Source: Bacteroidales bacterium (GTDB taxonomy: Bacteria > Bacteroidota > Bacteroidia > Bacteroidales > Marinilabiliaceae). Taken from it: 42,380 nucleotides of DNA. The notes beneath the pieces were generated by a model that had not been told where the DNA came from, did not search any database, and saw only the letters and a list, made by a program, of their open reading frames with translations. Location: NCBI GenBank assembly GCA_024401365.1, contig JAKSLE010000021.1, positions 1 to 42,380 on the forward strand, in the 5' to 3' direction. A program made the translations under genes and the position numbers. Positions 2,201-22,523 of the stretch are shown in pieces (position 1 is the first letter of the stretch; each line of letters opens with the position of its first letter).

Positions 2201-2224
2201 ACTGTTTGTTCTATTTTTCGCACG

Positions 2225-2232
2225 CAAAGGTA
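2225..2232 (-). promoter_or_regulatory. -7 promoter box of the RidA-like gene
   Basis: TACCTTTG followed by CG on the - strand. The predicted start near 2218 leaves a leader of about 18 nt before ATG 2200. No exact TTTG is found at 19-20 bp upstream; candidates lie at 14 and 23 bp. Confidence 0.5.
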
Positions 2233-2323
2233 ATGCTTTATTCCCTCAAATAAAACAAATGCAACCTTTTAGTTGCCCTTTCGTAAAATACTCAGATTCA
2301 CAGAGCAGCATCAAACACCCCAA

Positions 2324-3928
2324 ATGCTTATGAAAAATGGAATAATACGACTTGTACGCACAGTAGGCTTGGTAGCGCTACTGGTTTTCTGCTGTACATA
2401 CCTAGCAAACGCACAAAAAAACAAGCAGTCCGAACAGGAGTCTGTAACAGGTTGCGTAAAGGGCGACATGTATTTCTTTGCTGGCAGCTACAACAAGGCC
2501 TACAATGAATACTTGAAATTCTATTCAAGATCTAAAAATAAGGCTAATCCTGAATTGCTCTTGAAACTTACCGAGAGTATTATCAACGAAGATATGCCTA
2601 AAGATACTGCTTGCTTCTTCGCTGAGCAGTATATGGCTCTTAACCCAGAGGACTACAACGGTATTTTCTTGGCAGCTAAGGCATACTATCACACCCATAA
2701 ATTCGATAAGGCTGATAAATATCTCGAGGAGTACAAAAAAGTATTGTCCGAGGAAAAAGATATAGCCGAAGCTAACGATCTGGCTCGCCGCATCAAAAAC
2801 GCACGCCGAATGGTCAAGGATTCTGCTAAAATCGTTTTGCACAACATGGGTGAGATGATCAACTCGCCGTCTAACGAACTTAGCCCTATTATCGCAGCCG
2901 ATAATAGCGTATTGTATTTCTCGTGCGACGAAAAGTACAACAGCGGCATCATGCTCAACTACTTCAGTATCAAGTATGCCGAGAATCAGGACTTGTCTTG
3001 GACCAAAAGCAAATTGGCTACTGGCCCTATAAATACTTTGTTCGATGAGTATGTAACTGGCGTCTATGAGGGTGGCCTATTGCTGACTAGTAACAGAACT
3101 GGCGATTTCGGTATCTTCGAGTGCCCTATCCGTAAGGGCCCTGCTGGTAAATTCGTATCTGCAACTAAACTTCCGCCTCCTATCGACCTCTACGGCGACG
3201 AGGTGGGTGCTTGCATGATGGGAAATGATACTATCATCTTCTCCGCTACAACTCTTAATGGCAAACTCGATCTTTATTATTCTATCAGGGTTAATGGTAA
3301 GTGGGTTGAAAGCCGACCTCTCCCTGGTGAAATAAATACAGAATTGTACGACGAAAACTACCCTACCCTCGCAAATAACGGCACTCGCCTATATTTCGCC
3401 TCTAACAATGAGACTTCTATGGGTGGTTACGATTTGTACTATTCCGACCTCGACCCTAAGGAGTTTAAGTGGGGAAAACCGGTACAACTCCCTTATCCTA
3501 TTAATGATACTTTCGACAATATGTCTATCTCTTTCACTTCTGATAACAGATACTCGTATGTCAGCAATGTAAGAAAAGAAGGATATGGTTGCCGCGATAT
3601 CTATTGTATTATCAACGACAGCAAGGCAGCTACCCACGCCATCATGAAGTGCTTCGTGGGCATAAATACTAAGCCTAAACCTCGTCCCCTCACTCAAATG
3701 CCTCTAATACAGGTATTCGACACCGACGAAGAGATAGTATCTACGGCTAGACTCAACCTCCAGTCATCAACTTTCGTATTGGCCCTGGAACCTGGCACAT
3801 ATACTCTTAGAATTACTTCTGAAGAGGCCGAGGAATTTGAAACTCCTATCGTCGTAGAGGAGAAAGTATATAGCCAGGATGTCATCCAAAAGATATTCTT
3901 GCTGACAGCTAGTCAGCCTGCTGAATAA
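2324..3928 (+). CDS. Exported TPR/PD40 protein, PorE-like without OmpA domain
   Basis: About 534 aa. A signal peptide ([15 protein letters not shown]) precedes two or three TPR-like repeats ([20 protein letters not shown], then [21 protein letters not shown]). The middle holds PD40/WD40-like propeller blades: [32 protein letters not shown] with [10 protein letters not shown], and [15 protein letters not shown]. The C-terminus resembles a carboxypeptidase-regulatory-like beta domain ([15 protein letters not shown]). PorE of the type IX secretion system has the order TPR, propeller, CRD, OmpA; here the OmpA peptidoglycan-binding domain is absent. The role may be envelope-associated but is unproven. 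ATG 2324 (or 2330) gives the signal peptide; the upstream ATG at 2273 does not. It is followed after 22 bp by menB. Confidence 0.7.
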
Positions 3929-3950
3929 CAAAAAACTCAACTTACATACC

Positions 3951-4751
3951 ATGTGGAAGAAAATTAAGGATTACGAGGAGATTCTCTTCGACGAGTATAA
4001 CCATATAGCACGAATAACTATCAATAGAGAGAGGTACAGAAACGCCTTCACTCCATTGACAGTCGAGGAGATGATTGATGCCTTGAACTATTGCGAGAGA
4101 TGCTCCGATATACGAGTCGTCGTTCTCACAGGTGCCGGCGATATAGCATTCTGCGCCGGCGGTGATATGCACGTCAAGGGTTTCGGTGGCTATGTCGATA
4201 AGGATGGCGCTCCTCACCTGAATATCCTCCACGTACAGAAACAGATCAGAAGTATCCCTAAGCCTGTCATCGCTATGGTCAACGGCTTTGCCATAGGCGG
4301 AGGTCACGTACTTCACGTCGTTTGCGACTTGTCTATCGCTTCCGAGAACGCCCGCTTCGGTCAGACTGGCCCCCGCGTCGGTAGTTTCGACGCTGGTTTC
4401 GGCGCATCTTACCTCGCTCGCGTAGTCGGACAGAAGAAAGCTCGAGAGATTTGGTTCCTGTGCCGACAGTATACCGCCCAGGAGGCTCTCGAAATGGGCC
4501 TCGTAAATAAGGTAGTCCCTCAGGACCAACTCGAGGCAGAGGTGATTTCATGGGCTGAGGAGATGATGCAACTTTCTCCACTGGCTCTTAGAATGATAAA
4601 AGTTGGCTTGAACGCCGAACTTGACGGCCAAGCAGGTATCCAAGAGCTTGCAGGCGATGCTACAATGCTCTATTACATGACCGAAGAAGCCCAAGAGGGC
4701 GGTAAGGCATTCCTGGAGAAACGTAAGCCTAACTTCAAGTACAAATTCTAA
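3951..4751 (+). CDS. menB: 1,4-dihydroxy-2-naphthoyl-CoA synthase
   Basis: 266 aa, crotonase fold. It closes the second ring of the naphthoquinone in menaquinone synthesis, turning o-succinylbenzoyl-CoA into DHNA-CoA in the cytoplasm. MenB-specific stretches are present: [48 protein letters not shown] and the closing EKRKPNF. The oxyanion-hole regions FCAGGD and IGGGHVL are intact. The length is normal. No other men gene lies in the window, so it is separated from menFDHC-type partners. It is 22 bp after the PorE-like gene and may share its transcript. Confidence 0.95.
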
Positions 4752-4772
4752 TTACGTCTTATACAACCATTT

Positions 4773-4801
4773 GCGACAAGCCCCCACAAGGGACTTGCCG
4801 C
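4773..4801 (+). terminator. Imperfect hairpin after menB
   Basis: GCGaCAAGCCC can pair with GGGaCTTGcCGC (3+4+3 bp with a mismatch and a bulge). There is no T-run after it, so termination is uncertain. Confidence 0.3.
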
Positions 4802-4824
4802 TTAACCATTAACTTTATTACTAT

Positions 4825-5991
4825 ATGATTTCAATTAAGCAGACTTTATTGAGCATCGCTGCTGTGACTAGCCTCACTTGCTACGCTCAGGAGAATTACA
4901 AGGAGGTTATCAATAAAACCGAACTGAAAGAGTACACAAACAGATATACCCCTGTTCAGTACGTAACTCCTGATACAAAATTTGCAAAAGCACCTAAAAA
5001 TGTGATTTTCTTTATCGGTGACGGTATGGGTCAGGCTCAGGTATATGCCGCACTGACCGCCAACGGTGGCCAAATGTATATGTCGCAACTTAACTTATGC
5101 GGCTACAGCCAAACTCAGTCTGCCAATAACTACGTTACAGATTCTGCCGCAGGTGGCACAGCTTTGTCTACCGGAAAGAAAACGAACAACTATATGGTGG
5201 GCATGACTCCCGACTCGGTAGCTGTCCCTTCTATGCTCGAACTGGCTGAAAAAGCGGGCAAGGCTACAGGTATCGTTGTAACAGTAGCAGTAACCCACGC
5301 TACCCCAGCAGCTTTCATCGCTCATGTTCCCGACCGACATAGATACGAGGATATAGCATCTTTCTACCCCAACTCGGGAATCGACCTCTTCATCGGTGGT
5401 GGCATGAAGCACTTCACTCAACGTAAGGATGGCAGAAACCTCGTGAAAGAAATGACTGAAAAAGAGGGCTATAGATTCTACGAGAACCTGGAGTCGGCAA
5501 AAAATGACAACAAAAGCAAATTGGCCGTATTGGCATACCCCGAGCATATGCCTGATGTAGCTAGCGACAGAAAATTCTCTTTGGCTGAATCTACCAAAAA
5601 AGCTATCGACATCCTTAAACAGGATAAAAACGGTTTCTTCCTAATGGTCGAGGGCTCCCAAATCGACTGGGGAGGACACCATAATGTCATCAACGAGGTC
5701 GTAACAGAAACCCTCGACATGGATAGGGCTGTCGGCGAAGCTCTCAAATTCGCCGCAGAAAATGGCGAGACATTGATAGTAATCACAGCCGATCACGAGA
5801 CTGGTGGCCTTACGGTTATCGATGGCGACTACTCTACTGGTGCCATCAACGCCAATTTCTCAACGGGCAACCATACAGGTGTAATGGTTCCTGTATACGC
5901 CGTAGGCCCTTGTTCTGAACTATTCCACGGATGGTACCAGAATACCGAGGTATTCGACCGAATTGTTAAAGCGTTGAATATTAAGAAGTAA
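4825..5991 (+). CDS. Secreted PhoA-family alkaline phosphatase
   Basis: 388 aa. A signal peptide (LLSIAAVTSLTCYAQ) directs export. Catalytic features of the PhoA family are in order: IGDGMG (metal-binding Asp), VTDSAAGGTA (nucleophile Ser), EGSQIDWGGHHN (metal Asp/His), TADHETGG (Asp/His) and STGNHTG (His). It releases phosphate from monoesters in the periplasm. The sequence is shorter than E. coli PhoA but normal for the Bacteroidetes type. It stands alone; no pst or pho genes are adjacent, so phosphate control cannot be inferred. Confidence 0.93.
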   Translation: MISIKQTLLSIAAVTSLTCYAQENYKEVINKTELKEYTNRYTPVQYVTPDTKFAKAPKNVIFFIGDGMGQAQVYAALTANGGQMYMSQLNLCGYSQTQSANNYVTDSAAGGTALSTGKKTNNYMVGMTPDSVAVPSMLELAEKAGKATGIVVTVAVTHATPAAFIAHVPDRHRYEDIASFYPNSGIDLFIGGGMKHFTQRKDGRNLVKEMTEKEGYRFYENLESAKNDNKSKLAVLAYPEHMPDVASDRKFSLAESTKKAIDILKQDKNGFFLMVEGSQIDWGGHHNVINEVVTETLDMDRAVGEALKFAAENGETLIVITADHETGGLTVIDGDYSTGAINANFSTGNHTGVMVPVYAVGPCSELFHGWYQNTEVFDRIVKALNIKK

Positions 5992-9048: not shown

Positions 9049-11595
9049 ATGCTTTATCCAGAGAATATTGAAGACAAACTACACTTCGGGACTATACGTG
9101 AGAGTATCCGATTAAGGTGTAAAAGCGGAATGGGCCGCGAAATGGTGACTAGCATGGAGATGCTGACCGACTACGAGCCTATAATGCAAAAACTACAAGA
9201 GGTCAACGAGATGTTGGCTCTCATATCTTCATCAGACAACGACCTCCTCCCTTCTGACGAGTTCAACGACCCAAGGGAGATGTTCAACCGCATACGTATC
9301 ATCGGCCTACACCTCGAGGAGGATGAACTGGCCGACCTTCACACTATCCTTTCCCTTATCCGTCAGACCGTATCTTTTTTCAACAGAAATCAGGTCGATT
9401 CTGTAGGAGAGGACAACTACCCTTACCCTACCCTAAGGTTGCTGACTGATGACATACAGACATTCCCTCTGCTCATTCAGACTATCGATAAGGTAGTCGA
9501 CAAGTATGGAAGAATAAAGGATAGTGCTTCACCGGAACTGGCACAGACTCGTCGCGACATAAGGGATAAGGAGAGCCAGATAACACGACGACTCAACCAA
9601 ATCCTCAAGCAGGCTCAAACCGATGGTATTGTAGAGGCAGACGCTTCTGTAAGCATTCGCGATGGCCGCGCCGTAATCCCTGTAGCCGCAGCTAACAAAC
9701 GCCGCCTCCAGGGTATAGTGATGGATGAATCGGCTTCTGGACGTACCTCATATATCGAGCCTGCCGAGATTGTCTCTATGAATAACGATCTCCGCGAACT
9801 GCAGTATGCCGAGCGCAGAGAAATCATAAGAATCCTCACTTCTCTTACCGATAATATCCGCCCTTACTCAGAAGATATCCTTGATGGAGTGGATATGCTG
9901 GCAAAAACCGACTTCATCCGTGGCAAGGCTATCTACGCACGAGATATCGATGCCGTCATGCCCGAAGTCGACAAGAAGGCTGGTACATATATTTATGGTG
10001 GTCGACACCCTCTTCTTCATGTACAATTGAAGGCTCAGGGTAAGAGCGTTGTACCTTTAGACATAGAACTTAAATGGCCAAACGCCCGCATAGCTATTAT
10101 TTCAGGACCTAATGCTGGTGGCAAGTCTGTCTGCCTGCAGACCGTGGGTATATTGCATTATATGCTCCAGTGTGGCTTGCTCGTTCCTGTCAAAGAGGGT
10201 TCTAAGATGGGTATATTCAAGGATATCCTCATCGATATGGGCGACGAACAGAGTATCGAGAACGACTTGTCTACTTATTCGTCCCACTTGACAAATATGA
10301 AAATGTTCGTCAAGGTGTGCTCTAAATCTTCTTTGATACTGATAGATGAGTTCGGAACAGGTACCGAACCAGCTATCGGCGGCGCTATTGCCGAGAGCGT
10401 ATTGGACGAACTGAACAAGATGAGGGCATGGGGTGTCATAACAACCCACTATACCAACCTTAAGCATTTTGCCGCACAAACCGACGGTTTGGTAAATGCA
10501 GCTATGCTATTCGATACCCATAAGATTGAACCTTTGTTCAAACTGAGAATGGGACAGCCTGGTAGCTCTTTCGCATTCGAAATAGCTCGCAAAATCGGAT
10601 TACCAGAGAGCATCCTCGAGTCCGCTAAAGAGAAAATCGGACAGGAGCACCTGGATTTCGATAAGCATCTCCGAGAGATTATCCGCGATAAAAATTACTA
10701 CGAGCAAAGACGAGAACAGATTCGCCAACGAGAAAAACGCGTCGAGGAACTGGAGGCTCAGTACGACCAAGGCTTGCAGAATATCAAGAAGGAACGTCGA
10801 GAAATCCTCGATAAAGCTAAGACCGAAGCTCAACAGCTACTCTCCGAAACTAATCGACGTATCGAAAATACTATCAGGGAAATCAAGGAGAGCCAAGCCG
10901 AAAAACAGAAAACGAAGGAGGCTCGCGAGGCCCTGAACGCTTTCGAACAGACCGTAGAGGAGTCCGATGCGGATAAAGAACGAGAAGCAAGCATCAATCG
11001 TAAAATAGAAAAAATCAAGCGCCAACAGGAGCAACGAGAAAAACGCAGAGCTCAACAGGGTAACACTCCAGAGGTAAGCACCGAAAAGAAAGCACCTGAA
11101 CTGGCTATCGAAGTGGGTGCCATGGTGCAGATCGATGGCAAGGCAGACCGCATCGGCGAAATCCTCAAAATAAACAAAAATGAGGCTCTCGTCGCCATGG
11201 GCGGAATGCAGAGTAACATCAAACTTAGCCGCCTCAAGGCTATCAGTAAGTCTGCCGCCAAAAAGAGCGCCGGGTCTGCTTCAGCTAATATGGCTCTGGC
11301 TCGCACTTACTCTAATGTCATGGAGGCTGTTCGCGAGAAAAAACTCAACTTCAAGCCCGATATCGATGTCAGAGGTATGCGTACCGACGAGGCTATCGAA
11401 CAGGTGGCTGGATTCATCGATGAGGCAATAATATGCGAACAGAGCCAAGTCAGAATCCTCCACGGCAAGGGTAATGGCATCCTTCGCCAACAGCTGCGTA
11501 TATTCTTGCGCTCTATCGATGGCGTGCAACATATCGCTGATGAGGATATCCGACTGGGCGGTGCCGGCATAACTGTCGTAACGCTTAATTCTTGA
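9049..11595 (+). CDS. mutS2: Endonuclease MutS2 / RqcU
   Basis: 848 aa. The order is MutS core/lever region (about 1-330), ABC-type ATPase with Walker A SGPNAGGKS (about 352) and Walker B LILIDEFGTGTEP, a long charged coiled coil (about 530-690), and a C-terminal Smr domain (DVRGMR near 772, then ILHGKGNGILR). The usual Smr LDxR motif reads IDVR. MutS2 lacks the mismatch-binding domain; in other bacteria it suppresses recombination or splits collided ribosomes. I chose ATG 9049; the frame extends upstream to 8983, but that stretch lies inside the prenyltransferase gene. Confidence 0.95.
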   Translation: MLYPENIEDKLHFGTIRESIRLRCKSGMGREMVTSMEMLTDYEPIMQKLQEVNEMLALISSSDNDLLPSDEFNDPREMFNRIRIIGLHLEEDELADLHTILSLIRQTVSFFNRNQVDSVGEDNYPYPTLRLLTDDIQTFPLLIQTIDKVVDKYGRIKDSASPELAQTRRDIRDKESQITRRLNQILKQAQTDGIVEADASVSIRDGRAVIPVAAANKRRLQGIVMDESASGRTSYIEPAEIVSMNNDLRELQYAERREIIRILTSLTDNIRPYSEDILDGVDMLAKTDFIRGKAIYARDIDAVMPEVDKKAGTYIYGGRHPLLHVQLKAQGKSVVPLDIELKWPNARIAIISGPNAGGKSVCLQTVGILHYMLQCGLLVPVKEGSKMGIFKDILIDMGDEQSIENDLSTYSSHLTNMKMFVKVCSKSSLILIDEFGTGTEPAIGGAIAESVLDELNKMRAWGVITTHYTNLKHFAAQTDGLVNAAMLFDTHKIEPLFKLRMGQPGSSFAFEIARKIGLPESILESAKEKIGQEHLDFDKHLREIIRDKNYYEQRREQIRQREKRVEELEAQYDQGLQNIKKERREILDKAKTEAQQLLSETNRRIENTIREIKESQAEKQKTKEAREALNAFEQTVEESDADKEREASINRKIEKIKRQQEQREKRRAQQGNTPEVSTEKKAPELAIEVGAMVQIDGKADRIGEILKINKNEALVAMGGMQSNIKLSRLKAISKSAAKKSAGSASANMALARTYSNVMEAVREKKLNFKPDIDVRGMRTDEAIEQVAGFIDEAIICEQSQVRILHGKGNGILRQQLRIFLRSIDGVQHIADEDIRLGGAGITVVTLNS

Positions 11596-11622
11596 TAACT
11601 GAACAACAATTATATACCTAAT

Positions 11623-13611
11623 ATGAAACGACTTTTATTTGTTGCTCTGATGCTGAGCGCAACTTCTGCTATGGCTCAGCTGACCGTAGAGAACACTACA
11701 GCTGGCACAAAAGAGTATAGAGAAATATACCCTCGTGGCATATATACTACTTTTTGTAAACAGACTGGCGACGTACTTGCATACGATAATGAGAGTAAGG
11801 ATTACTACGTTGCAGCGTCTACCGACAAAAAAAGAATCGGTAAGCGCTCATCAATAGACGAAGTAAACAAAAACGAGGAACTGCCCTACTCCGCATACCA
11901 CCAGGGTGATTCTCTCCTAGTAAAGGCTCCCGCTACAAATGGCATCGCAGTGTTGATCAACGATACTATAGCTGATGGCCTCGTTTTCGGTAAGTCTGTC
12001 CACCGCAATGAGTTCGGTATCATGGATGGTCGCTTCTGGAATCACAACGGCTCTCTCCTCGCCTTCTATCGCATGGACGAACGTATGGTCGCCCAATACC
12101 CACTGGTCGATATACCAGAGGTAAATAATGGTATAGCTACCGCTCATCCCGACCGCTACCCTATGGCCGGAAGCACTAGCCATAAGGTCAAAATAGGAAT
12201 CTTCGATACTAATACCCAGAAAATCATCTATCTCGATACCGAGGGATACGACGAAAACAGATACCTTACCAACATTAGTTGGTCTACCGACAACAAGTCA
12301 ATATGCGTAGCCGAGATCAATCGCGAACAGAACCACATGTGGTTCAATATTTACGATGCTACAACGGGTAAAAAAATCAAGACTTTGTTCGAGGAGGAGA
12401 GCAATTCTTGGGTTGAACCTTGTACTGCCGCTAAGTTTATCGATGATAACACAATGTTGTGGCTCTCCGAACGTGACGGATACCTACATATATATAGGTA
12501 TAACATCTCTAATGGCTCTTGCACTCAGTTGACTCATGGCAATTGGGTCGTAACTGAACTCTTGGGATATGATGCCAAGACCAAAAACGTAATCTTTCAG
12601 GCAAACAAGGAGAGCTACCTGTGCCGTGACATCTATTCTGTAAACATCAGCGGCAAGAAGGAGCCTGTCCGTCTCACCCAGGGCGAGGGTGTTCACAATG
12701 GCGATTATAGCGACAATAGCCGTTTCTTGGTAGACCGCTGCTCTGCTTTGATGCCAGCTATGACCACAAGTATCATAGACATTACAACTGGCAAGGTTGT
12801 TAAGGAATTGAATAGAATCGAGAAGCCTTGGGGTGATACAGCCCTTCCTGAAATGGAGTTCGTCAACCTCAAGACTGCCGATGGTAAACATGATATCACA
12901 GGCCGTATGATCTTGCCTCTTAATTTCGACCCGTCTAAGAAATATCCCGTACTGGTCTATCTCTATGGCGGCTCTCATGCCCACATGGTCGATAAGAGTT
13001 GGATAGGCGGAGCGTCTGCTTGGATGCTTTACTTCGCCCAGGAGGGATACATCGTTTGGTCTCTCGATAACCGAGGTAGCGAAAACCGCGGCGTGGAGTT
13101 CGAACATGCCACTCACCGACAACTGGGTACTTGCGAGAGCGCCGACCAGATGGAGGGCGTCAAATACCTCCTCTCACTGCCTTATGTCGACAAGGATAGA
13201 ATGGCTATCCACGGATGGAGCTTCGGCGGATTCATGACTCTCACTATGCTGACCCGATACCCCGATGTCTTCAAAGTGGGTATAGCTGGCGGCCCTGTGT
13301 GCGACTGGAGCCTGTACGAGGTTATGTACGGCGAGAGATATATGGATACCCCACAAGAAAACCCCGAGGGATACGCATTCAACAATATCTCTAATAATAT
13401 CGAAAAACTGAAGGCTAAATTGCTCCTCATCCACGGATACCAAGACGCAACAGTAGTCCCCCAAAACGTACTCGGCCTCATCAAAACGGCTGTCGATAAA
13501 GATATAATGATCGATATGGCTTTCTATACCGGCCACGCTCATAACGTAACCGGCCCAGACAGAGCTCATTTGATCAAGAGAATCAAGAGATATCTCGATG
13601 ATAATCTCTAA
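11623..13611 (+). CDS. Secreted S9 dipeptidyl-peptidase IV-like protease
   Basis: 662 aa. A signal peptide (LLFVALMLSATSAMAQ) leads to an eight-bladed beta-propeller region (to about 390) and an alpha/beta-hydrolase domain. The catalytic triad is visible: Ser533 in HGWSFGG, Asp608 in HGYQDATV and His640 in GHAHNV. It cleaves dipeptides, typically after Pro or Ala, from peptide N-termini in the periplasm. It is a little shorter than typical Bacteroidetes DPP-IV (about 720 aa), with the difference in the propeller. It starts 27 bp after mutS2. Confidence 0.92.
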   Translation: MKRLLFVALMLSATSAMAQLTVENTTAGTKEYREIYPRGIYTTFCKQTGDVLAYDNESKDYYVAASTDKKRIGKRSSIDEVNKNEELPYSAYHQGDSLLVKAPATNGIAVLINDTIADGLVFGKSVHRNEFGIMDGRFWNHNGSLLAFYRMDERMVAQYPLVDIPEVNNGIATAHPDRYPMAGSTSHKVKIGIFDTNTQKIIYLDTEGYDENRYLTNISWSTDNKSICVAEINREQNHMWFNIYDATTGKKIKTLFEEESNSWVEPCTAAKFIDDNTMLWLSERDGYLHIYRYNISNGSCTQLTHGNWVVTELLGYDAKTKNVIFQANKESYLCRDIYSVNISGKKEPVRLTQGEGVHNGDYSDNSRFLVDRCSALMPAMTTSIIDITTGKVVKELNRIEKPWGDTALPEMEFVNLKTADGKHDITGRMILPLNFDPSKKYPVLVYLYGGSHAHMVDKSWIGGASAWMLYFAQEGYIVWSLDNRGSENRGVEFEHATHRQLGTCESADQMEGVKYLLSLPYVDKDRMAIHGWSFGGFMTLTMLTRYPDVFKVGIAGGPVCDWSLYEVMYGERYMDTPQENPEGYAFNNISNNIEKLKAKLLLIHGYQDATVVPQNVLGLIKTAVDKDIMIDMAFYTGHAHNVTGPDRAHLIKRIKRYLDDNL

Positions 13612-14413: not shown

Positions 14414-14962
14414 TCAAATATCGTCTACATCAGCAAATACGGGCTGCCACTCTTTAAACATCGGCTCGTCATACATCTTCCTGAAATCACCTTCCCTGAA
14501 TGGCGCCTTCGTACACATTATCTCAAACGTACTGCCAAAATACGTCATACATCTGCCCGTGTGAGAAAAACCATATCGCTCATAGAACCTCGTTCGCATA
14601 AGCCGCTCTTCATAATTGCCTGCACCCTCCTTCAATGGCCCCATATCAAGCACAAGCTGACAGTCAGGATACATAGATATAAGCTTCTCCAACGCCTTGC
14701 CCCCTATACCCCTATTCCTATACTTCTCGTCAACAGCAAAGAACCAGAAGTATACAATCCTATTCTCTAGCCTGGTCATAATATTGAGCAACCCCACAAG
14801 CACCTCTTCTTCATATATCCCATAGATATCTACCGAATATTCTTCAAGCATATCATAATACTTGTCACTCTCTATGCGCTCACTATCAGGAAAAGATCTC
14901 TCATATATATCCAACAGCTTGCCAGCATCTTTATGGCTCCTGTCTATCTTCAGCATTTCCAT
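14414..14962 (-). CDS. GNAT-family N-acetyltransferase
   Basis: About 182 aa. The acetyl-CoA-binding motif is seen as FFAVDEKYRNRGIGGKALEKL, followed by the later motif-B region (MRTRFYERYGF). It transfers an acetyl group from acetyl-CoA to an unknown amine in the cytoplasm. The longer frame begins with TTG inside the upstream MBL gene, so ATG 14962 (preceded by AAGGAACGAG) or 14956 is preferred. It follows the MBL-fold gene by 20 bp on the same strand, so the two are probably co-transcribed. Confidence 0.82.
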   Translation of the reverse strand: MEMLKIDRSHKDAGKLLDIYERSFPDSERIESDKYYDMLEEYSVDIYGIYEEEVLVGLLNIMTRLENRIVYFWFFAVDEKYRNRGIGGKALEKLISMYPDCQLVLDMGPLKEGAGNYEERLMRTRFYERYGFSHTGRCMTYFGSTFEIMCTKAPFREGDFRKMYDEPMFKEWQPVFADVDDI

Positions 14963-14982
14963 ATCTCGTTCCTTGTTTATGT

Positions 14983-15735
14983 TCAACACTCTATACTCGC
15001 CCCGTCTCTCTCTATGCACCAATATTCAATACCTTTGGCCGCACACTCGTCTTTCACCCTCCACGAACTCTCAAACCCACTCATCACAAAGTGCATCGGC
15101 ACAAATAGCCCTACCTTGAACTTATCAATAAACTGACGGGCACCTAACGTATACCCATTGCCAATCCTGCCGTCTACAGGAAACATCGCAATGTCAAACT
15201 TGTCCGTCAACTTGCCTATATCTTTTAGCTCTCCCAAAAAGCGCTTTTCTTCTTTCAACGGATCTATCTCACAGTATTCATCACTGATTATCATCGGGGG
15301 CACATTGTCTCTGTCATAGAGAAACTTCGCATACCAGTTGTTCAAATCGCCTGCATGAAATATCTTCTTCCCTCCTACCTCAATAATCCAACTGACACCA
15401 CTGTCATTACTGCCCGTTGCCGTGACTTTTATATGCTCATCTTGCCACATAGCCCCCTTGCCCATCCATACGTCTGCCTCTTCTTGCTTCGCTCTCTTGC
15501 GTCTCAATATATCCTTGGATAGTATATAGGTAATATCTTTTTTCTTTTCTCTCCACGAAAAGATAGCGCGACTGAAGTGGTCTTCATGAAAATGACTGGA
15601 GAATACATAGACGGGCTTCGACTTCCCTAGCACGGGAAGAACAACATTCGCCGGATCCATCCAATAATCAAATATCAGTATACACTCTTCCGACTCTAGC
15701 ACAAAACCGCTATGAAAAATATATGTCAATGTCAT
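14983..15735 (-). CDS. MBL-fold metallohydrolase
   Basis: About 250 aa. It starts MTLTYIFHSGF, a common start in a family of small cytoplasmic MBL proteins, and has the metal motif SSHFHEDHF and later FHAGDLNNWY (Asp/His ligand region). The substrate is unknown; distant relatives include UlaG-like lactonases. The promoter box at 15764-15757 sets the start at or after 15744; ATGs at 15744, 15741 and 15735 are possible. A gap and a terminator separate it from the AstE-like operon upstream, so it is a separate unit that merely lies nearby. Confidence 0.82.
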   Translation of the reverse strand: MTLTYIFHSGFVLESEECILIFDYWMDPANVVLPVLGKSKPVYVFSSHFHEDHFSRAIFSWREKKKDITYILSKDILRRKRAKQEEADVWMGKGAMWQDEHIKVTATGSNDSGVSWIIEVGGKKIFHAGDLNNWYAKFLYDRDNVPPMIISDEYCEIDPLKEEKRFLGELKDIGKLTDKFDIAMFPVDGRIGNGYTLGARQFIDKFKVGLFVPMHFVMSGFESSWRVKDECAAKGIEYWCIERDGASIEC

Positions 15736-15756
15736 ACCCATCATATATTCGCTATG

Positions 15757-15764
15757 CAAATATA
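15757..15764 (-). promoter_or_regulatory. -7 promoter box of the MBL-GNAT pair
   Basis: TATATTTG followed by CAT on the - strand. The predicted start near 15750 leaves a very short leader. No clear TTTG at -33. Confidence 0.5.
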
Positions 15765-15885: not shown

Positions 15886-15916
15886 CAAAAGGGCTAGCCT
15901 ATCTCAGACTAGCCCT
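15886..15916 (-). terminator. Terminator of the ATP-grasp/AstE operon
   Basis: AGGGCTAG (15890-15897) and CTAGCCCT (15909-15916) form a perfect 8-bp stem with an 11-nt loop. On the - strand it is followed by TTTTGTTTTTG, so it ends the leftward operon 48 bp after its last stop codon. Confidence 0.85.
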
Positions 15917-15964
15917 CCGTGCGTTAATTGTTAGAGTAACCGTTGTGTGATTTTTGCAAAAACG

Positions 15965-16897
15965 CTATTCTATATATTCTACTATCTGGAAAATCCTGGA
16001 GTGCTGGTGAATCAGCGGAGTGTGATGCGCAAAAAATACCGTTCCCGTTACTGGCGAATAGATGGAGTCCAACGTCTCTCCCATATATGGCGAGAGTACT
16101 TCTGCCAATAAATCGCCTTTCTTCACGTTTTGCGCTATATCACATCTCGGATATAGTATGCCTGATTGTCTCGAAACTACTGTGCTCAACTTATCGTTCT
16201 TCAACCTGAATGGTACCATTCCTCCATGCATAGGCTTGTCTATTATCCCCTTGGCATGCAGAAACCTCAATATTCCTGTCCACGTCTGCTTCGCTAAATC
16301 TTTATTGATGACATCGGTCGAACCTCCATATACACTGAACGCCTTCGTCTCAAATATCTGCCAGTTGTAGTTCAACAACGTCGTATCATAAGGCCTTGGC
16401 TCATATTCATATACGAATGGCAAACCAAAACTCTCGGCACTCTCAATGTCTTGATAGCCGGTATCCATAACCCTCACGTGTGGCACAAAGTTTCCATTCA
16501 AATAGTAACTAGATAGCTGTATGCCATACTCGTATCCCTTAACGGTCTCAAAAAGAGCTGCAGCAATACGCTGCGTAGTCTCTCCCTGATCATACCCAGG
16601 AAACATACGGTTGATGTCCGTATTGTCCATCGCCCAGAATCGCTTATGTATATTCAGCGAATATGGATTGACCGTAGGTATTACAAGTATTCCTACATTG
16701 GGATTTATCTTTCCTTCACCTTCTAACGCTATGAGATTCTTCACCAACTGCGAACATATAAATAGCTGCTGCACCTCATTGCCTCGCATAGCACCAACAA
16801 TTGCCACAGTTTTATCTCCATTACCGAAATAAAAACCTGGTATGCGATAGTCATCTCTAAAAGGTGATTTCATCGTAAAAATATCACATTGTTTCAT
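15965..16897 (-). CDS. AstE/AspA-like protein lacking catalytic residues
   Basis: 310 aa, succinylglutamate desuccinylase/aspartoacylase fold (M14-like). Against its intact neighbour the zinc His38 is Arg (GAMRGNE), Glu41 is kept, the second zinc His is Gln127 (YGIQLSS) and the catalytic Glu is Tyr190 (FSVYGGS). The substrate-binding stretch DINRMFPG near 94-101 and the C-terminal beta domain with the turn KKGDLLAEVLSP remain. It is therefore probably not a zinc hydrolase and may regulate or scaffold the active copy, or bind the product. It is the last gene of a five-gene operon, two bases after the upstream stop. An alternative ATG is at 16873. Confidence 0.82.
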   Translation of the reverse strand: MKQCDIFTMKSPFRDDYRIPGFYFGNGDKTVAIVGAMRGNEVQQLFICSQLVKNLIALEGEGKINPNVGILVIPTVNPYSLNIHKRFWAMDNTDINRMFPGYDQGETTQRIAAALFETVKGYEYGIQLSSYYLNGNFVPHVRVMDTGYQDIESAESFGLPFVYEYEPRPYDTTLLNYNWQIFETKAFSVYGGSTDVINKDLAKQTWTGILRFLHAKGIIDKPMHGGMVPFRLKNDKLSTVVSRQSGILYPRCDIAQNVKKGDLLAEVLSPYMGETLDSIYSPVTGTVFFAHHTPLIHQHSRIFQIVEYIE

Positions 16898-16899
16898 TT

Positions 16900-17832
16900 C
16901 TATACTGGATTATTTTCGTAGAATATTCGAGCCAATAACGACCCTTCGTATACTATTGGATAGCTACGCATTGTAAATAATAGGCCATCAACTGGCGCCT
17001 CAACATTCTCAAGTACATCTCCTGTCAAAGAACTTACTATCTGACAGAGCACATCGCCCTTGCTGACTCTTGTCAAATTTGGTATCGTATTTATTATAAC
17101 GCCGGAATAGTTGGCATTGATAAAACATACATCACCTATCGTGGATACTATCGGCTTGTGTATCCTCACTGGCAAATCGCCTCCCCACATGCCAAACTTG
17201 TCCAACACATTTATAATGCCATCCACCAGTTTATCTCCATACTCCTTGGTAATCTTCATACCTATTCCCATCTCTACCACTACCGTAGGCGTCCCTATCG
17301 AATTGAGAGAATGGGCAATGGTCGACTCTAGCACAGTGGCAGCATCATGTACCCATATAAAGTCTAGATTCAACATCTGTACTATCGGCATAAGCTTGTC
17401 CGCAAATGTCTTGCTTACTCGAGCCTGGGGTATCTCATATAGATAAATGTTGGATGAGTGAATATCAATAACTAGATCCGCCCCAGCCAGATCTTCAATA
17501 ATCCTATGAGCCACATACTCTATCATATGCCCATCTGGATTTCCAGGGAATATGCGGTTCATGTCTAAATCAAATGTCGGAATCGCTCTCGACACCGAAT
17601 CTACTCCTAGCGGATTTAAAGCGGGATACAACTCAACGAGCCCCTTAAGCTGATGTATGTCTTTCTTCAGCCTTCGCATTAGTTCATAGCAGACGTACTG
17701 ACCCTCTAGCTCGTCTCCATGAATACCTGTAACGATACACACTCGCTTCCCACCTTTTGTTCCTATAGAATTCTTCTTGATGATAAGTCGCTCATCAACT
17801 GGAAGATTCTCTGATATTACGGTTTGTATCAT
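16900..17832 (-). CDS. AstE/AspA-like zinc hydrolase, intact
   Basis: 310 aa, same family and length as the next gene. The active site is complete: His38 and Glu41 in GIHGDELEG, His125 in VIDIHSS, catalytic Glu187 in VVVEMG, and the substrate-binding NRIFPG. It should hydrolyse an amide bond, perhaps of an acyl-amino acid or a small peptide made by the upstream ATP-grasp protein. Its ATG overlaps the TGA of the transglutaminase gene (ATGA), implying coupled translation. Members of this family act in the cytoplasm. The true substrate is unknown. Confidence 0.85.
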   Translation of the reverse strand: MIQTVISENLPVDERLIIKKNSIGTKGGKRVCIVTGIHGDELEGQYVCYELMRRLKKDIHQLKGLVELYPALNPLGVDSVSRAIPTFDLDMNRIFPGNPDGHMIEYVAHRIIEDLAGADLVIDIHSSNIYLYEIPQARVSKTFADKLMPIVQMLNLDFIWVHDAATVLESTIAHSLNSIGTPTVVVEMGIGMKITKEYGDKLVDGIINVLDKFGMWGGDLPVRIHKPIVSTIGDVCFINANYSGVIINTIPNLTRVSKGDVLCQIVSSLTGDVLENVEAPVDGLLFTMRSYPIVYEGSLLARIFYENNPV

Positions 17833-18629
17833 ATTGTACTATTAATAATATTGCCTCTCAGAACTTCTCGTACCGACGTGCTTACATGTATGGTCTGATC
17901 TCCCGCCCCTCTAAAAACTCCATGATTGGTACAGCAATCATTGTAGTCTCGTCCATGGGCCAACTTGATATATGTGTCATCTACAGCCTTGTTGTTGGTC
18001 GGATCAAATGCATGCCACTCTTTTAAGTCAGCTACATAATACTCTACCCACGCATGGGTCTGCCCTTCTCCCAACATATACCCATTGACATACCTGGCTG
18101 CTACTCCGCATAAACGACATAGACATATGGCTATATGCGCAAAATCTTGACATACCCCCTTGCCTTGCGCAAACGCTGCCTCGGCTGAGGTACAGACGTC
18201 CGTGCTCCCAGATACATATTGTATATGCACATGTATAAGGTCCGAAATCTTGCGAATCAAAGCCTCCTCACCAGTCGTGCTACCTAATTGATGAGCAAGA
18301 TACATTAGTGCCGCCGACGGACTGGTGAGGGGCGATTCATATAAGAATAAGGGATTGAAATCTCCTGGATATATGTGTCTATCGACCGAGACTAGCCCAC
18401 GACTCTCAAATGCAAAAGAGTCGTGGTAGTCATCGATATACCCATAATCTACAGTATTTCCCATGAAATCTGTATTCCTACTTATATTGCAGTTCGGAAT
18501 GGCCGAAACATGCTCTTCTATAATGTGCTGACATATACTTTGGTACGGAGAACAGCGCATACTGAAACTGTGTGCGTGTATCGGCGACGAAAACGTAATT
18601 ACAGTAATATGGCTGTATTTGAGTACCAT
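17829..18629 (-). CDS. Transglutaminase-like cysteine protease-fold protein
   Basis: 266 aa. The N-terminal beta domain of the bacterial transglutaminase-like family is followed by the catalytic core: Cys in GKGVCQDFAHI, His in THAWVEYY and Asp in HAFDPTNN. Proteins of this type commonly neighbour alpha-E and circularly permuted ATP-grasp genes, as here, and are predicted to hydrolyse or transfer amide bonds. No signal peptide. It is 3 bp after the alpha-E gene and overlaps the next start by 4 bp. Confidence 0.9.
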   Translation of the reverse strand: MVLKYSHITVITFSSPIHAHSFSMRCSPYQSICQHIIEEHVSAIPNCNISRNTDFMGNTVDYGYIDDYHDSFAFESRGLVSVDRHIYPGDFNPLFLYESPLTSPSAALMYLAHQLGSTTGEEALIRKISDLIHVHIQYVSGSTDVCTSAEAAFAQGKGVCQDFAHIAICLCRLCGVAARYVNGYMLGEGQTHAWVEYYVADLKEWHAFDPTNNKAVDDTYIKLAHGRDYNDCCTNHGVFRGAGDQTIHVSTSVREVLRGNIINSTI

Positions 18630-18632
18630 CTG

Positions 18633-19310
18633 TTAGGCAGCAAAAATATTGTTGAGGTTATCAAGAACTATCGGAGAAAGTGTAACTTCTGTAATCCCAC
18701 TACGAACTACCGACATCTTTCGGTCGTCACATAGACTCGACTCAACATTTACAAAATACTCCAACCTGTCAAGCATCTCTTCTATACGATTTCGTGTATA
18801 ATCAAATCTGATGTACAAATCCGATTTCTCAACATACTTGCCTATAAGTATCAGATTGAGCACTTCCATATTGTATACCCTCTCTTCAATAGCTCCAAAA
18901 AACGCAAAGAGAAAATCTGTTACTGGCTGCAAGTCATAGAGACGACTCTCGTCTTCTTGCGCCTTCTTCATATAGTTAATCGCCATCTCAACATACGCAA
19001 GCGACTCACTCTTGAGCTCTTCTCTCAATAGTATAGCATTGTCTTTTACTCGCTCCAACATGTTGATTACCGAATATTCTTTCTCTCTGTTGTAGAGGAA
19101 GTCTTTTAGAAACTGCCTTGCATTCTCTTCCTCACATGGAATACCTAAACGAGTACAGAAACTCTTATGTACATTGGTGCTCTCGTTATCTAGTACCTCA
19201 TCATAATCTTTGTGTAACATATGAAGTACCGTACATACACGCTCTGAATATCTACCCAACCAGTAAAGGCGACTTGCCTTCGCAGGGGAAATTGCAATAT
19301 TGTAAGTCAT
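18633..19310 (-). CDS. Alpha-E domain protein
   Basis: 225 aa, almost wholly alpha-helical, starting with the family signature ISPAKASRLYWLGRYSERV and a region of repeated acidic helices. The alpha-E domain has no known catalytic activity and is nearly always encoded with a circularly permuted ATP-grasp and a transglutaminase. It probably binds one of them. It sits 22 bp after the ATP-grasp gene in the same operon. Confidence 0.9.
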   Translation of the reverse strand: MTYNIAISPAKASRLYWLGRYSERVCTVLHMLHKDYDEVLDNESTNVHKSFCTRLGIPCEEENARQFLKDFLYNREKEYSVINMLERVKDNAILLREELKSESLAYVEMAINYMKKAQEDESRLYDLQPVTDFLFAFFGAIEERVYNMEVLNLILIGKYVEKSDLYIRFDYTRNRIEEMLDRLEYFVNVESSLCDDRKMSVVRSGITEVTLSPIVLDNLNNIFAA

Positions 19311-19332
19311 AACTCTAATTTTTTTTAATTTC

Positions 19333-20652
19333 TTATTTATCTAGTACCCATGTATCCTTGAAACCACCGCCTTGCGATGAATTGACAATGAACGATTTGC
19401 TGTCTCTTGTAAATCTGGTCAATCCGCTTGCCCAAACTTTTGTCTGCTCTCCTGAGATAACAAATGCTCGCAAATCTGCCTTTCGCTTAACCTTCTCCCC
19501 ATTGTCTATAATATCAAGATCAATGAAGTTGATTACCTCCTGCGCAATCCACCTACGAGATTCTGTCTCTATGAGATGACGCATCTCTTTGAGTTTCTCA
19601 GGACTCATATCCCTGCCAAACATTACACCATATCCTCCGGCTTCCGAAACGTCTTTCAGAACTAGTTTCTCTAGATTCTCCAATACATACTTGCGATCTT
19701 CTTCATAGAATGGAAGATATGTAGGCGCATTCTTCAGTATAGGCTTTTCATTGAGATAGTATTCCACCATCTTGGGTACAAAGTAATATAGTCCCTTGTC
19801 GTCTGCTACTCCGTTACCAAAAGCATTCACTATGGCTACATTCCCTTGACGATATACCTCAAATAGATTGGCAACTCCCAAAAGCGACGATGGCTCAAAT
19901 GTCATAGGATCCATATACTCGTCTGATATACGACGGTATATTACTCCTACCCTCTCACTCTTGTTGTTCAACCCCTTGTAGTAAACATGACCGTTGTCTA
20001 CAAATAGGTCATCAGGATAGGCCAAAACTACTCTGGCTTTTTCTGCTAAATAGGAATGCTCAAAATATGCCGAATTGTATCGCCCTGGCGTAAGTATTAC
20101 CTCTAGACCATTGTCAACATTCACATAGTCCATCGATTCTCTGAGCAACTGAGCATAGTTTCTGTTGTCTATCAATGACGAATCTGTAAATGTCTCAGGC
20201 GAAGCCTTCCTCGTCAAATCCCTGGCAATCATAGGATACGACGCACCCGACGGCACTCTTAGATTGTCTTCTAGTACATACCACTCGCCTCCTTCTGCCT
20301 GAACAAGATCAATGCCCGATATATGGGAGTATATTCCCCTATATGGCTCAAACCCTTCACATTGTGGCAAATATCCTTTCGAGGAATAGATAAAATCAGC
20401 AGGAATAACCCCATCTTTCACAATACTCTTCTCAGTATATACATCTCGAAGAAATGCGTTCAACGCATCAACTCGCTGCTTAAGTCCTACCTCAAGTTTT
20501 TGCCAGTCAGCATGACTGATAATGCGGGGAATCGCATCAAATGGGAACAACTGTTCCTTGAATTCGCCGTTCTTATAGATGCCAAAGCGCACTCCATATC
20601 GCTCCATCCATCTGTTGACAGCATCAGTTTGTTTCAAAAGTAGACTATACAT
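19333..20652 (-). CDS. Circularly permuted ATP-grasp protein
   Basis: 439 aa. Signature motifs are EDNLRVPSG (about 128-136), a Gly-rich loop near KDVSEAGGYGVMFG, the QEVINFIDLD segment, DLRAFVISGEQ and a C-terminal NSSQGGGFKDTWVL. The circularly permuted type-2 ATP-grasp fold is expected to join a carboxylate and an amine using ATP, making a peptide-like bond. First gene of the operon, under a near-perfect promoter. I use ATG 20652; the longer frame starts with GTG two codons earlier. The substrate is unknown. Confidence 0.92.
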   Translation of the reverse strand: MYSLLLKQTDAVNRWMERYGVRFGIYKNGEFKEQLFPFDAIPRIISHADWQKLEVGLKQRVDALNAFLRDVYTEKSIVKDGVIPADFIYSSKGYLPQCEGFEPYRGIYSHISGIDLVQAEGGEWYVLEDNLRVPSGASYPMIARDLTRKASPETFTDSSLIDNRNYAQLLRESMDYVNVDNGLEVILTPGRYNSAYFEHSYLAEKARVVLAYPDDLFVDNGHVYYKGLNNKSERVGVIYRRISDEYMDPMTFEPSSLLGVANLFEVYRQGNVAIVNAFGNGVADDKGLYYFVPKMVEYYLNEKPILKNAPTYLPFYEEDRKYVLENLEKLVLKDVSEAGGYGVMFGRDMSPEKLKEMRHLIETESRRWIAQEVINFIDLDIIDNGEKVKRKADLRAFVISGEQTKVWASGLTRFTRDSKSFIVNSSQGGGFKDTWVLDK

Positions 20653-20698
20653 ACACACTATACAAATAAATTAAACACTCTTAGTTTCAAATTCACTA

Positions 20699-20729
20699 CA
20701 AAGATACACGATTACTTTTAATATGCAAA
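20699..20729 (-). promoter_or_regulatory. Promoter of the ATP-grasp operon
   Basis: On the - strand TTTG (20729-20726), exactly 19 bp, TATCTTTG (20706-20699). This is a full match to the Bacteroides consensus. The predicted start near 20692 leaves a 40-nt leader. Confidence 0.85.
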
Positions 20730-20863: not shown

Positions 20864-21331
20864 TTATTCTTTTGGATACCGAATTCCCATAAAAAGTGCA
20901 ACTTTCACTACGACTTTTGTAAAATAAAAATTTAACACATGCATCAAAAAAAAATTTACAAACAACCACCTTTGAACCCTCCAATAGAGCGATTTTTCAT
21001 TGATTGTGAACTTTTTAAATAGCACAAATTCTACCACCTTACATAGGTAGTTCGTCGTATCTACTACCTCATCTTTTACACGACACGAATCTCCTTGCGT
21101 ACGCACAAATCCGTCCCCTATCTCTACTACTCGATGTGCTACCATCTTGTTGCCTCTCTGAAATATAATAATATCCCCCTTACCTACTTCTTCTAACGGA
21201 AACTTCACAGCCCTCAGAATACTGTGTGGCCAAATCGTAGGAAACATGCTAATACCAGCAGAAAGGGTCTCATATACACCTACCTTCCCTTCCGCCAACA
21301 TCTTCCTTACCAATTCTGGCATGCAAATCAT
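20864..21331 (-). CDS. S24/S26 signal peptidase, SipW/ER type
   Basis: 155 aa. The nucleophile Ser28 is in GISMFPTI. The general base position holds His66 (MVAHRVVEIG) instead of Lys, as in SipW, archaeal and ER signal peptidases. A box resembling GDN...D follows (TQGDSCRVKDE). A C-terminal hydrophobic stretch (about 118-150) could anchor it in the membrane. It should cut a leader from an exported or modified peptide. Its ATG overlaps the stop of the kinase gene (ATGA). An alternative ATG is at 21322. It is not the housekeeping LepB type. Confidence 0.82.
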   Translation of the reverse strand: MICMPELVRKMLAEGKVGVYETLSAGISMFPTIWPHSILRAVKFPLEEVGKGDIIIFQRGNKMVAHRVVEIGDGFVRTQGDSCRVKDEVVDTTNYLCKVVEFVLFKKFTINEKSLYWRVQRWLFVNFFLMHVLNFYFTKVVVKVALFMGIRYPKE

Positions 21332-22233
21332 AAGCCCGCTTTTTGTATCTCGTCTACTATACGCTCGTCTGGAAGAAAACCACAGTCGGCAAAGCCTACC
21401 GATGAAGATATATCCATCATCAACTTAATATACTTCTTGAGATATTCTGGCTGAAATGTCTGATGCGCCGTGTGCGACATCAATTGCATAACATATACAG
21501 CCCCGGATAATGGAGCTACCTCATTGTTCTTACTCTGACGAATGAAAAATATCGTGTCCAATAGTACCGACCTCTGCACATCCTTATAATATGGCATAGG
21601 TATATTAAACACCCATGTCTTTTTAGTCGGACGGTGAAGTCGCATTATCAACATGTCATCATTGATAATCGTAGCCCCACAACGCTCCCATATTCGCGCC
21701 ATAGTACTCTTACCGGTACCGGAAACAGCCGTAAACAACCTACCCCTGTCTTTGTACGATACACACGACGCATGTATCAATACCGCATCAAATCGCCATA
21801 ATACTCGCGACAGGAATAGCATAAACAGAGGCATAATCATAATGTCTTGCTGCTCTGGATTGGGCAACAACTGCATGCTTACCTCCGCCTCAAATGTATC
21901 TGGATTAAAATCTACTCGTACCCTCTTCAAAAATGGATGTCTGGAGAAATAATTGACATACAATACCTCCCTGTTCCTCTCATCTATGCATACCTTCCAC
22001 TCATAATCATACGGAGTGTCCGGAACATTCTCACTGGTACTCTTGCAATGCCACGCAAATTCTCCCTCTACTACTTCGGGAACTTCCTCTTCTATACGGA
22101 ATCTTACACCTACGTCTCTTCTCTCTGGCTCGCCTTCTCGCATGAAGCCATGAAAGTCTTGCCGAAAATCAACCCACCTCGGGTCTTCAGATAACTCTAT
22201 ACCGAAATTTATGCCAGCTAATGATAGGTACAT
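21328..22233 (-). CDS. HPr-kinase-related P-loop protein
   Basis: 301 aa. The C-terminal half resembles the HPr kinase/phosphorylase catalytic core: P-loop SGTGKST (171-177), INDDMLIMR with Asp192/Asp193, and a later LSGAVYVMQL. The first 140 residues are not like the HprK regulatory domain. HPr-related kinases of this class are found with PqqD-like proteins in Bacteroidetes and in lasso-peptide or exosortase settings, where they are thought to phosphorylate a peptide or protein Ser. No HPr gene lies nearby. It is translationally coupled to both neighbours. Confidence 0.82.
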   Translation of the reverse strand: MYLSLAGINFGIELSEDPRWVDFRQDFHGFMREGEPERRDVGVRFRIEEEVPEVVEGEFAWHCKSTSENVPDTPYDYEWKVCIDERNREVLYVNYFSRHPFLKRVRVDFNPDTFEAEVSMQLLPNPEQQDIMIMPLFMLFLSRVLWRFDAVLIHASCVSYKDRGRLFTAVSGTGKSTMARIWERCGATIINDDMLIMRLHRPTKKTWVFNIPMPYYKDVQRSVLLDTIFFIRQSKNNEVAPLSGAVYVMQLMSHTAHQTFQPEYLKKYIKLMMDISSSVGFADCGFLPDERIVDEIQKAGL

Positions 22234-22523
22234 TACTCAGAGCGTCTCGTTACATATCCATATTCAACAAGCTGTCCGAGAAAGGTATCTACGTCCAACT
22301 TCACCTGGTCAAGCGATTCTGCATCAAATTCTTCCATAATCTTCGATGCTATATCTGTCGTCGCGTGTTCTTGCCCATCTGCCAAACAGTCTATCATGGC
22401 ACGACCGCTACTGTTGGTGGCCACCATACTTTTCATCTTGGCTATATCTTGCTCTACCGCTATTATCGCAGTATCGCCCATCACATCCTCAAGTATGTAA
22501 TTGTTATTCGACTTATATATCAT
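22233..22523 (-). CDS. PqqD-like peptide-binding (RRE) protein
   Basis: 96 aa. The pattern YILEDVMGDTAIIAV, then LADGQEHATTDIASKIMEEF, then LDQVKLDVDTFLGQLVEYGYV is that of PqqD: a three-stranded sheet followed by winged-helix-like helices. PqqD binds the leader of a precursor peptide and presents it to modifying enzymes. It starts the three-gene cassette; its stop overlaps the kinase start by one base (TAATG). No precursor peptide is seen within the cassette. Confidence 0.85.
   Translation of the reverse strand: MIYKSNNNYILEDVMGDTAIIAVEQDIAKMKSMVATNSSGRAMIDCLADGQEHATTDIASKIMEEFDAESLDQVKLDVDTFLGQLVEYGYVTRRSE

Follow-up and report, generated by a model that had tools for sequence, protein, structure and literature searches.

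A probable variant of the Anbu operon in Bacteroidales, with an AstE/AspA-type hydrolase and its inactive twin in the place of Anbu

The window analysed here, a stretch of 42,380 nucleotides of contig JAKSLE010000021.1 (assembly GCA_024401365.1) from a member of the Bacteroidales placed in the Marinilabiliaceae, carries on its reverse strand a compact cassette of five genes that is the subject of this work. The first gene encodes a predicted circularly permuted (CP) type 2 ATP-grasp amide ligase (19333..20658, with an ATG at 20652 and a GTG at 20658; Pfam CP_ATPgrasp_2, 455 bits), the second a short alpha-E helical protein of 225 residues (18633..19310; Alpha-E, 62.6 bits) and the third an enzyme of transglutaminase fold with Cys160, His192 and Asp209 (17829..18629; Transglut_core, 69.5 bits, and Bact_transglu_N, 39.8 bits). 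There follow two proteins matching AstE_AspA_cat: AstA, a putative AstE/AspA metallohydrolase with an intact zinc site (16900..17832; 89.4 bits), and AstB, a putative pseudo-hydrolase of the same family (15965..16897; 48.1 bits). All five assignments stand above the Pfam family cut-offs. The first three genes follow one another at 22 and then 3 bases, transglutaminase and AstA overlap by 4, and AstB comes 2 bases after AstA, a spacing so close that the five are expected to share one transcript; read from the DNA alone, they are thus predicted to form a single operon. A match to TTTG-N19-TATCTTTG, which we take to be the consensus of a Bacteroidota-type promoter, lies at 20699..20729, 46 bases 5' of the first gene's ATG, and an intrinsic terminator, with a stem of 14 pairs and a T-rich tail, at 15888..15918, both on the reverse strand, so that the operon, promoter and terminator described in a first-pass annotation are all recovered. 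With a gap of 17-21 bases this promoter pattern has 6 matches in the window, where 0.76 would be expected and 100 shuffles give at most 3; the match at 20666-20635, which overlaps the start codon, is probably due to chance, and a sigma-70 scan listed no site 5' of the operon.

Using alpha-E as the first query in surveys of the genus, the family and the order kept the AstE-type genes out of the question. Of the genomes surveyed it was present in 10 of 15 for the genus, in 12 of 71 for the family and, for two overlapping samples of the order, in 5 of 119 and 12 of 314. A short form of the protein, aligned to about positions 6-164 of the 294-position profile in frames of 229-282 residues, was met as 19 copies in 18 genomes (a weak match of 26.9 bits within a frame of 870 residues in G252 was left out of the count), and AstA and AstB accompany it at all 19 loci. 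Eighteen of these have the five genes in one order, among them L009, whose ATP-grasp is spread over two frames; the remaining one, in G360, is split over two contig ends, with both AstE-type genes cut. Full-length alpha-E was found in G174, G265, G310 and G349. The protein of the window is itself of the short form, covering only positions 6-164, a shortening that the first-pass annotation had missed while naming the family as Pfam does. Among 81 cassette copies its length is 220-244 residues, with no conservation of the C-terminus, and an AlphaFold2 model of the window's copy (pLDDT 92.5) is helical.

When genome contigs were scanned with an alignment of AstB, 586 relatives came up, of which the best 80 were analysed; as this sample was selected by AstB, it shows that AstB is accompanied by the trio of ATP-grasp, alpha-E and transglutaminase, not the converse, and seven of the 80 were already among the 19 short-form copies. 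All five genes are present in 72 of the best 80, in the window's order on one strand in 70 of the 72, two Planctomycetota having a divergent arrangement; in L026, L040 and L083 the ATP-grasp is made up of two frames, as alpha-E is in L037 and L046, and in L036 the ATP-grasp runs off the end of its contig. Six of the eight relatives without the full cassette have a contig end within about 2.8 kb of AstB (L048, L051, L062, L071, L086, L088). The two others, with 7 to 8 kb upstream, are L069, where transglutaminase and AstA are broken, and L080, where only the last 75 residues of alpha-E precede an intact AstA-AstB pair. A search for alpha-E elsewhere in the assemblies of L080, L069, L071 and L051 found none, while those of L062 and L048 have one each. 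To judge by record titles, the carriers among the best 80 belong to Bacteroidales including Prevotella, Lachnospiraceae, Ruminococcus and other Bacillota, Desulfovibrionaceae, Duodenibacillus and Planctomycetota, many of them from rumen, horse gut or rabbit gut; L045, for one, is from Ruminococcus flavefaciens FD-1. The distance matrices of the five cassette proteins correlate with r of 0.81 to 0.89, as shared ancestry would also yield, and in a cassette protein tree, considered without support values, the Desulfovibrionaceae and Planctomycetota copies stand amid those of Bacteroidales. A linkage of 19 out of 19 and of 72 out of 80, over several phyla, is no chance neighbourhood, and the suggestion that these genes travel together is to that extent upheld.

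AstA and AstB are 24% identical over 288 residues, and a profile comparison aligns them from end to end. In AstA, residues His38, Glu41, His125 and Glu187 and the pair Asn92-Arg93 are invariant in the 87 copies counted; the first three are presumably the zinc ligands and Glu187 the catalytic glutamate, as in AstE/AspA chemistry generally. At the corresponding positions AstB has Arg38 in all 89 copies counted, Ala, Thr, Ser or Pro and never His at position 129 (AstA His125), and at position 190 (AstA Glu187) Tyr in 87 of the 89, Phe and Ile in the others, with Glu41 and Asn96-Arg97 kept in all 89. AstA would therefore have its zinc site and catalytic glutamate intact, and AstB would have lost two of three zinc ligands together with the catalytic glutamate, uniformly, with the other pocket residues retained: an intact amide hydrolase and an inactive twin, as already proposed. 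The uniformity of the change points to one old remodelling, upheld by selection, and to an AstB that is not decaying. In a comparison of the window with L014, a single genome pair representing two species of the genus, the non-synonymous difference is lowest for AstB among the five genes. A structure model of AstB (pLDDT 88.7, residues 89-99 poor) matches DoeB, CphZ and other structures of the family over its whole length, and its profile, as well as that of AstA weakly, matches the CphZ structures 8ein and 8eip, a beta-Asp-Arg dipeptide hydrolase of the AstE/AspA family; this likeness to CphZ is one of fold and weak profile similarity only. Within the branch of DoeB and CphZ (PF24827), where DoeB scores above CphZ, AstA and AstB are distant relatives, AstB differing by the loss of two zinc ligands and the catalytic glutamate. 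As candidates for the DoeB deacetylase itself they were rejected: with 74.3 bits AstA stays far under the NCBIfam equivalog cut-off of 402.7, and AstB reaches 29.7.

The core of the cassette has counterparts elsewhere. Its ATP-grasp matches the solved structure 3n6x, a CP ATP-grasp named putative glutathionylspermidine synthase by its depositors, over nearly the whole length (E 3e-108), and its transglutaminase matches the core domain of the transglutaminase-like protein 3isr (E 1e-18) over residues 87-251 only, with the Cys-His-Asp triad present in all 84 copies counted. The ATP-grasp is moreover 44% identical to that of L018, one of four Bacteroidales loci with full-length alpha-E (the others being L100, L101 and L102) in which the trio adjoins a protein of 234-253 residues that starts with Met-Thr-Phe/Tyr-Cys and stands above the Pfam Proteasome cut-off in all four; that of L102 matches three solved structures which carry the name Anbu, at E 1e-35 to 2e-34, and two more under the name Peptidase, at 4e-25 and 1e-23. 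Each of these four trios has Anbu and none has AstE-type genes. In the loci read, Anbu and AstA-AstB are alternatives on one core, and because AstE-type genes stand where four other Bacteroidales loci have Anbu, the cassette may be understood as a variant of the Anbu operon. The first-pass annotation, which rightly saw a conserved trio of unknown product, had overlooked that it is the core of the Anbu operon, with AstE genes in Anbu's place. Both systems have ATP-grasp, alpha-E and transglutaminase as direct neighbours in this order with a hydrolase gene alongside, whereas the cassette has two AstE-like genes in place of Anbu, an alpha-E without the second half of the Pfam profile and no large transglutaminase-DUF2126 amidoligase neighbour. 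The latter is, in L102, a protein of 1159 residues beside the trio (9964-13443) that combines transglutaminase domains with a DUF2126 amidoligase domain, hence a second ligase, and, in L101, a similar large transglutaminase-like open reading frame (ORF) of 1155 residues (1611-5078).

In a sample of 326 genomes of the phylum, where Anbu was sought with a four-row profile, alpha-E was matched in 124, at full length except in the window's genome, in G658 (a fragment) and in G531 (below cut-off). Twenty-one of the sampled genomes gave an Anbu match, all of them with full-length alpha-E, and in 16 Anbu lies no more than about 1.2 kb from it. Strong AstB was found in the window's genome only; G534, which has Anbu, gave one partial AstB match (83.5 bits) 30 kb from its alpha-E. 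The window's assembly, 87% complete, gave no Anbu match with the four-row profile, nor is there one in the operon. Alpha-E matches within frames of 844-905 residues (G506, G661, G471, G517, G570, G606, G582, G534, G470) are perhaps fusions of ATP-grasp to alpha-E.

We know of no solution of the role of the Anbu operon later than the Anbu paper of 2017. In extracts of that paper, all hypotheses on this role are given as unconfirmed and Anbu cleaved none of three peptides tried (PMC6376114); the ATP-grasp of the Yersinia operon released phosphate from ATP (extracts of PMC5666114 and PMC6376114). No description of the five-gene variant was found in the titles, abstract starts and passages of the related literature covered, including PMC5777263, PMC8407117 and PMC12661447, with Iyer et al. 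2009 outside this scope.

As it stands, we favour, with a probability of roughly 0.55, the view that these five genes are a version of the Anbu operon in which the Anbu slot is filled by the zinc amidohydrolase AstA and the pseudo-enzyme AstB, and which would serve amide or isopeptide turnover at times of nitrogen scarcity. The amide-making core would have been retained, with alpha-E shortened. The ATP-grasp, aided by alpha-E, would join a carboxylate to the amine of an amino acid, the transglutaminase-fold enzyme would move or exchange the amide via a Cys-acyl intermediate, and AstA would hydrolyse an amide or isopeptide, its conserved Asn-Arg pair gripping an acidic end; AstB might be a partner of AstA, or a binder of the same ligand that does not cut it, and would time the action of AstA. 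That formation, transfer and hydrolysis are so combined is put forward tentatively.

That the cassette works under nitrogen scarcity, taken by itself and by analogy, we hold to be somewhat short of an even chance. In extracts of the study of a Burkholderia cenocepacia H111 ntrC mutant, I35_5080-5083 are down 8.2, 9.4, 9.4 and 6.0 fold, the fourth being a large transglutaminase-domain protein and Anbu not being named there (PMC5491218). In Pseudomonas putida under nitrogen limitation, extracts of PMC7801951 give PP_2686-2688 as up 11 to 37 fold in three strains, PP_2687 and PP_2688 being, from operon order, presumably alpha-E and ATP-grasp, and a passage on marine metagenomes associates the trio domains with urea-metabolism domains (PMC3597751). 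Around the cassettes themselves, AmtB is found within the flanks of 7 out of 89 (all seven confirmed by Pfam), where 0.5 to 0.7 genes would be expected if every 2.5-3 Mb holds 1.7 to 2 copies; P is 0.002 to 0.006 if the seven stand for about four lineages and 0.01 to 0.03 if they stand for three. For the variant, the nitrogen link is suggestive; it has firmer grounds for the trio in other organisms. Other neighbours are a type III glutamine synthetase cluster (4 of 89 cassettes, all in Ruminococcus) and a peptidase C26 cluster, of gamma-glutamyl hydrolase type (7 of 89, in Ruminococcus and one Acetatifactor). Peptidase C26 lies directly 3' of AstB in L061, L068, L074 and L086 and nearby in L040, L045 and L065, as checked by Pfam in L061, L065, L068 and L074; a RelA/SpoT-domain protein adjoins the cassette in L040, L045 and L065 (at about 9110-10108 in all three; checked by Pfam in L065) and in L083 (9291-10268).

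Several observations weigh against this understanding of the operon. In the same extracts of PMC7801951, PP_2685, the proteasome-like Anbu of P. putida, changes only 1.1 to 4.8 fold, and the nitrogen data derive from full trios of other phyla. AmtB is near only those 7 of 89 cassettes, and among 18 cassette-bearing Bacteroidales genomes it adjoins the cassette in one (G132), being about 20 kb off in G126; no family occurs more than three times among 81 co-directional neighbours picked from 159. In the phylum sample, 103 of the 124 alpha-E genomes gave no Anbu match with the four-row profile and 102 neither Anbu nor strong AstB, so that at these thresholds the alternation of Anbu and AstE genes is not universal. 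Four fecal scaffolds of a phage collection (L099, L107, L108, L109) have AstA-AstB with no trio in the stretches covered, and two of these records, searched whole, have no alpha-E; the pair of L080 is likewise without an intact trio, and L071 has AstB with no AstA within 2 kb upstream, a contig end being near. Among these five trio-less pairs AstB keeps Arg38 in all, and the site residues of AstA are intact in L107, L109 and L080, with Arg93 lost in L099 (Asn-Arg to Asn-Met); L108 lacks the Asn-Arg pair as well as the first of the zinc His residues. The pair can therefore outlast the trio and sometimes decays, and the five genes are not a strictly bound unit, some contigs retaining AstA-AstB without it. 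Such pairs, the AstE-free trios of the four Anbu loci and the restriction of strong AstB to the window's own genome in the phylum sample go some way towards what the first-pass annotation had named as counting against its proposal.

Other explanations have to be weighed against the same facts. A protein-tagging role, in which proteins would receive amino acids or a short peptide from ATP-grasp and transglutaminase and be freed of them by AstA, seems unlikely, since the AstE/AspA relatives of solved structure and known substrate, DoeB, CphZ, AstE and aspartoacylase, act on small N-acyl amino acids or dipeptides. The cassette has no candidate gene for a tag and the alpha-E C-terminus is unconserved, even though protein tagging has been published as a proposal for the Anbu operon (cited in extracts of PMC6376114 and PMC5666114); neither the tag nor the complete make-and-trim pathway of the first-pass annotation is borne out. 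A cassette that builds and mobilises a cyanophycin-like, nitrogen-rich amide, with an AstA akin to CphZ, would agree with the CphZ matches, with the nitrogen links of the trio and AmtB, and with the glutamine synthetase and peptidase C26 neighbours. We nevertheless rate it a rather poor candidate: the resemblance to CphZ is common to DoeB and others, DoeB scoring higher, there is no cyanophycinase-type gene, and nitrogen shortage turns the known trios on, not off.

Equally poor, in our eyes, are the chances that AstA-AstB is an independent hydrolase pair for peptides or acyl-amino acids that merely shares the trio's transcript. The trio-less pairs with intact AstA sites (L107, L109, L080) speak for it; the linkage in constant order over several phyla speaks against it, as do the correlated distance matrices, with the reservation on shared ancestry made above, and the loss of AstA site residues in two of the five such pairs (L099, L108), as for relics. 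Patchy distribution over phyla and variable flanks might evoke a secondary-metabolite or defence cassette, which is very improbable: PADLOC gave no match for four of the five proteins and for alpha-E a weak AbiEi match (E 8.5e-4) taken as chance, no conserved transporter or carrier protein adjoins the cassettes, and AstB was not found in 72,556 plasmids at E 1e-20 nor, by a pattern-based scan, in viral contigs.

The surroundings of the operon deserve mention. Between it and its upstream neighbour a hairpin with a T run, seen by eye and unlisted by the terminator scan, lies near 20828-20794; that neighbour, at 20864-22523 on the reverse strand, is an operon resembling modified-peptide systems, with a PqqD-like protein above the Pfam cut-off and HprK-related/ScmC-like and signal-peptidase-like proteins, both under NCBIfam cut-offs. 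Just past the terminator, at 14414-15759 on the same strand, a metallo-beta-lactamase-fold protein overlaps a GNAT acetyltransferase ORF. The assembly has a second complete five-gene cassette (L003, on G000:C41, a contig of 5,477 bases), whose relatives are rumen Bacteroidales and Prevotellaceae copies; it is either a foreign acquisition or a binning contaminant.

If the cassette is indeed derived from the Anbu type, Anbu would have been exchanged naturally for a metallohydrolase whose family has known reactions. The product of the core would then be narrowed to a compound that AstE-family enzymes can cleave, and AstA would be a soluble enzyme open to assay, against which substrates could be screened directly. 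A further view, to which we give little likelihood, is that of a widespread nitrogen-scarcity system of gut anaerobes, apparently spread horizontally, in which an unknown isopeptide is made and recycled and AstB serves as a pseudo-enzyme receptor that would bind the uncleaved product through Tyr190 and through Arg38, close to Glu41 at the expected place of the zinc, and would gate AstA. On this view the Anbu system would have a second way, not a proteasomal one, of carrying out its hydrolase step. AstB would in any case be a pseudo-enzyme less variable than its active twin.

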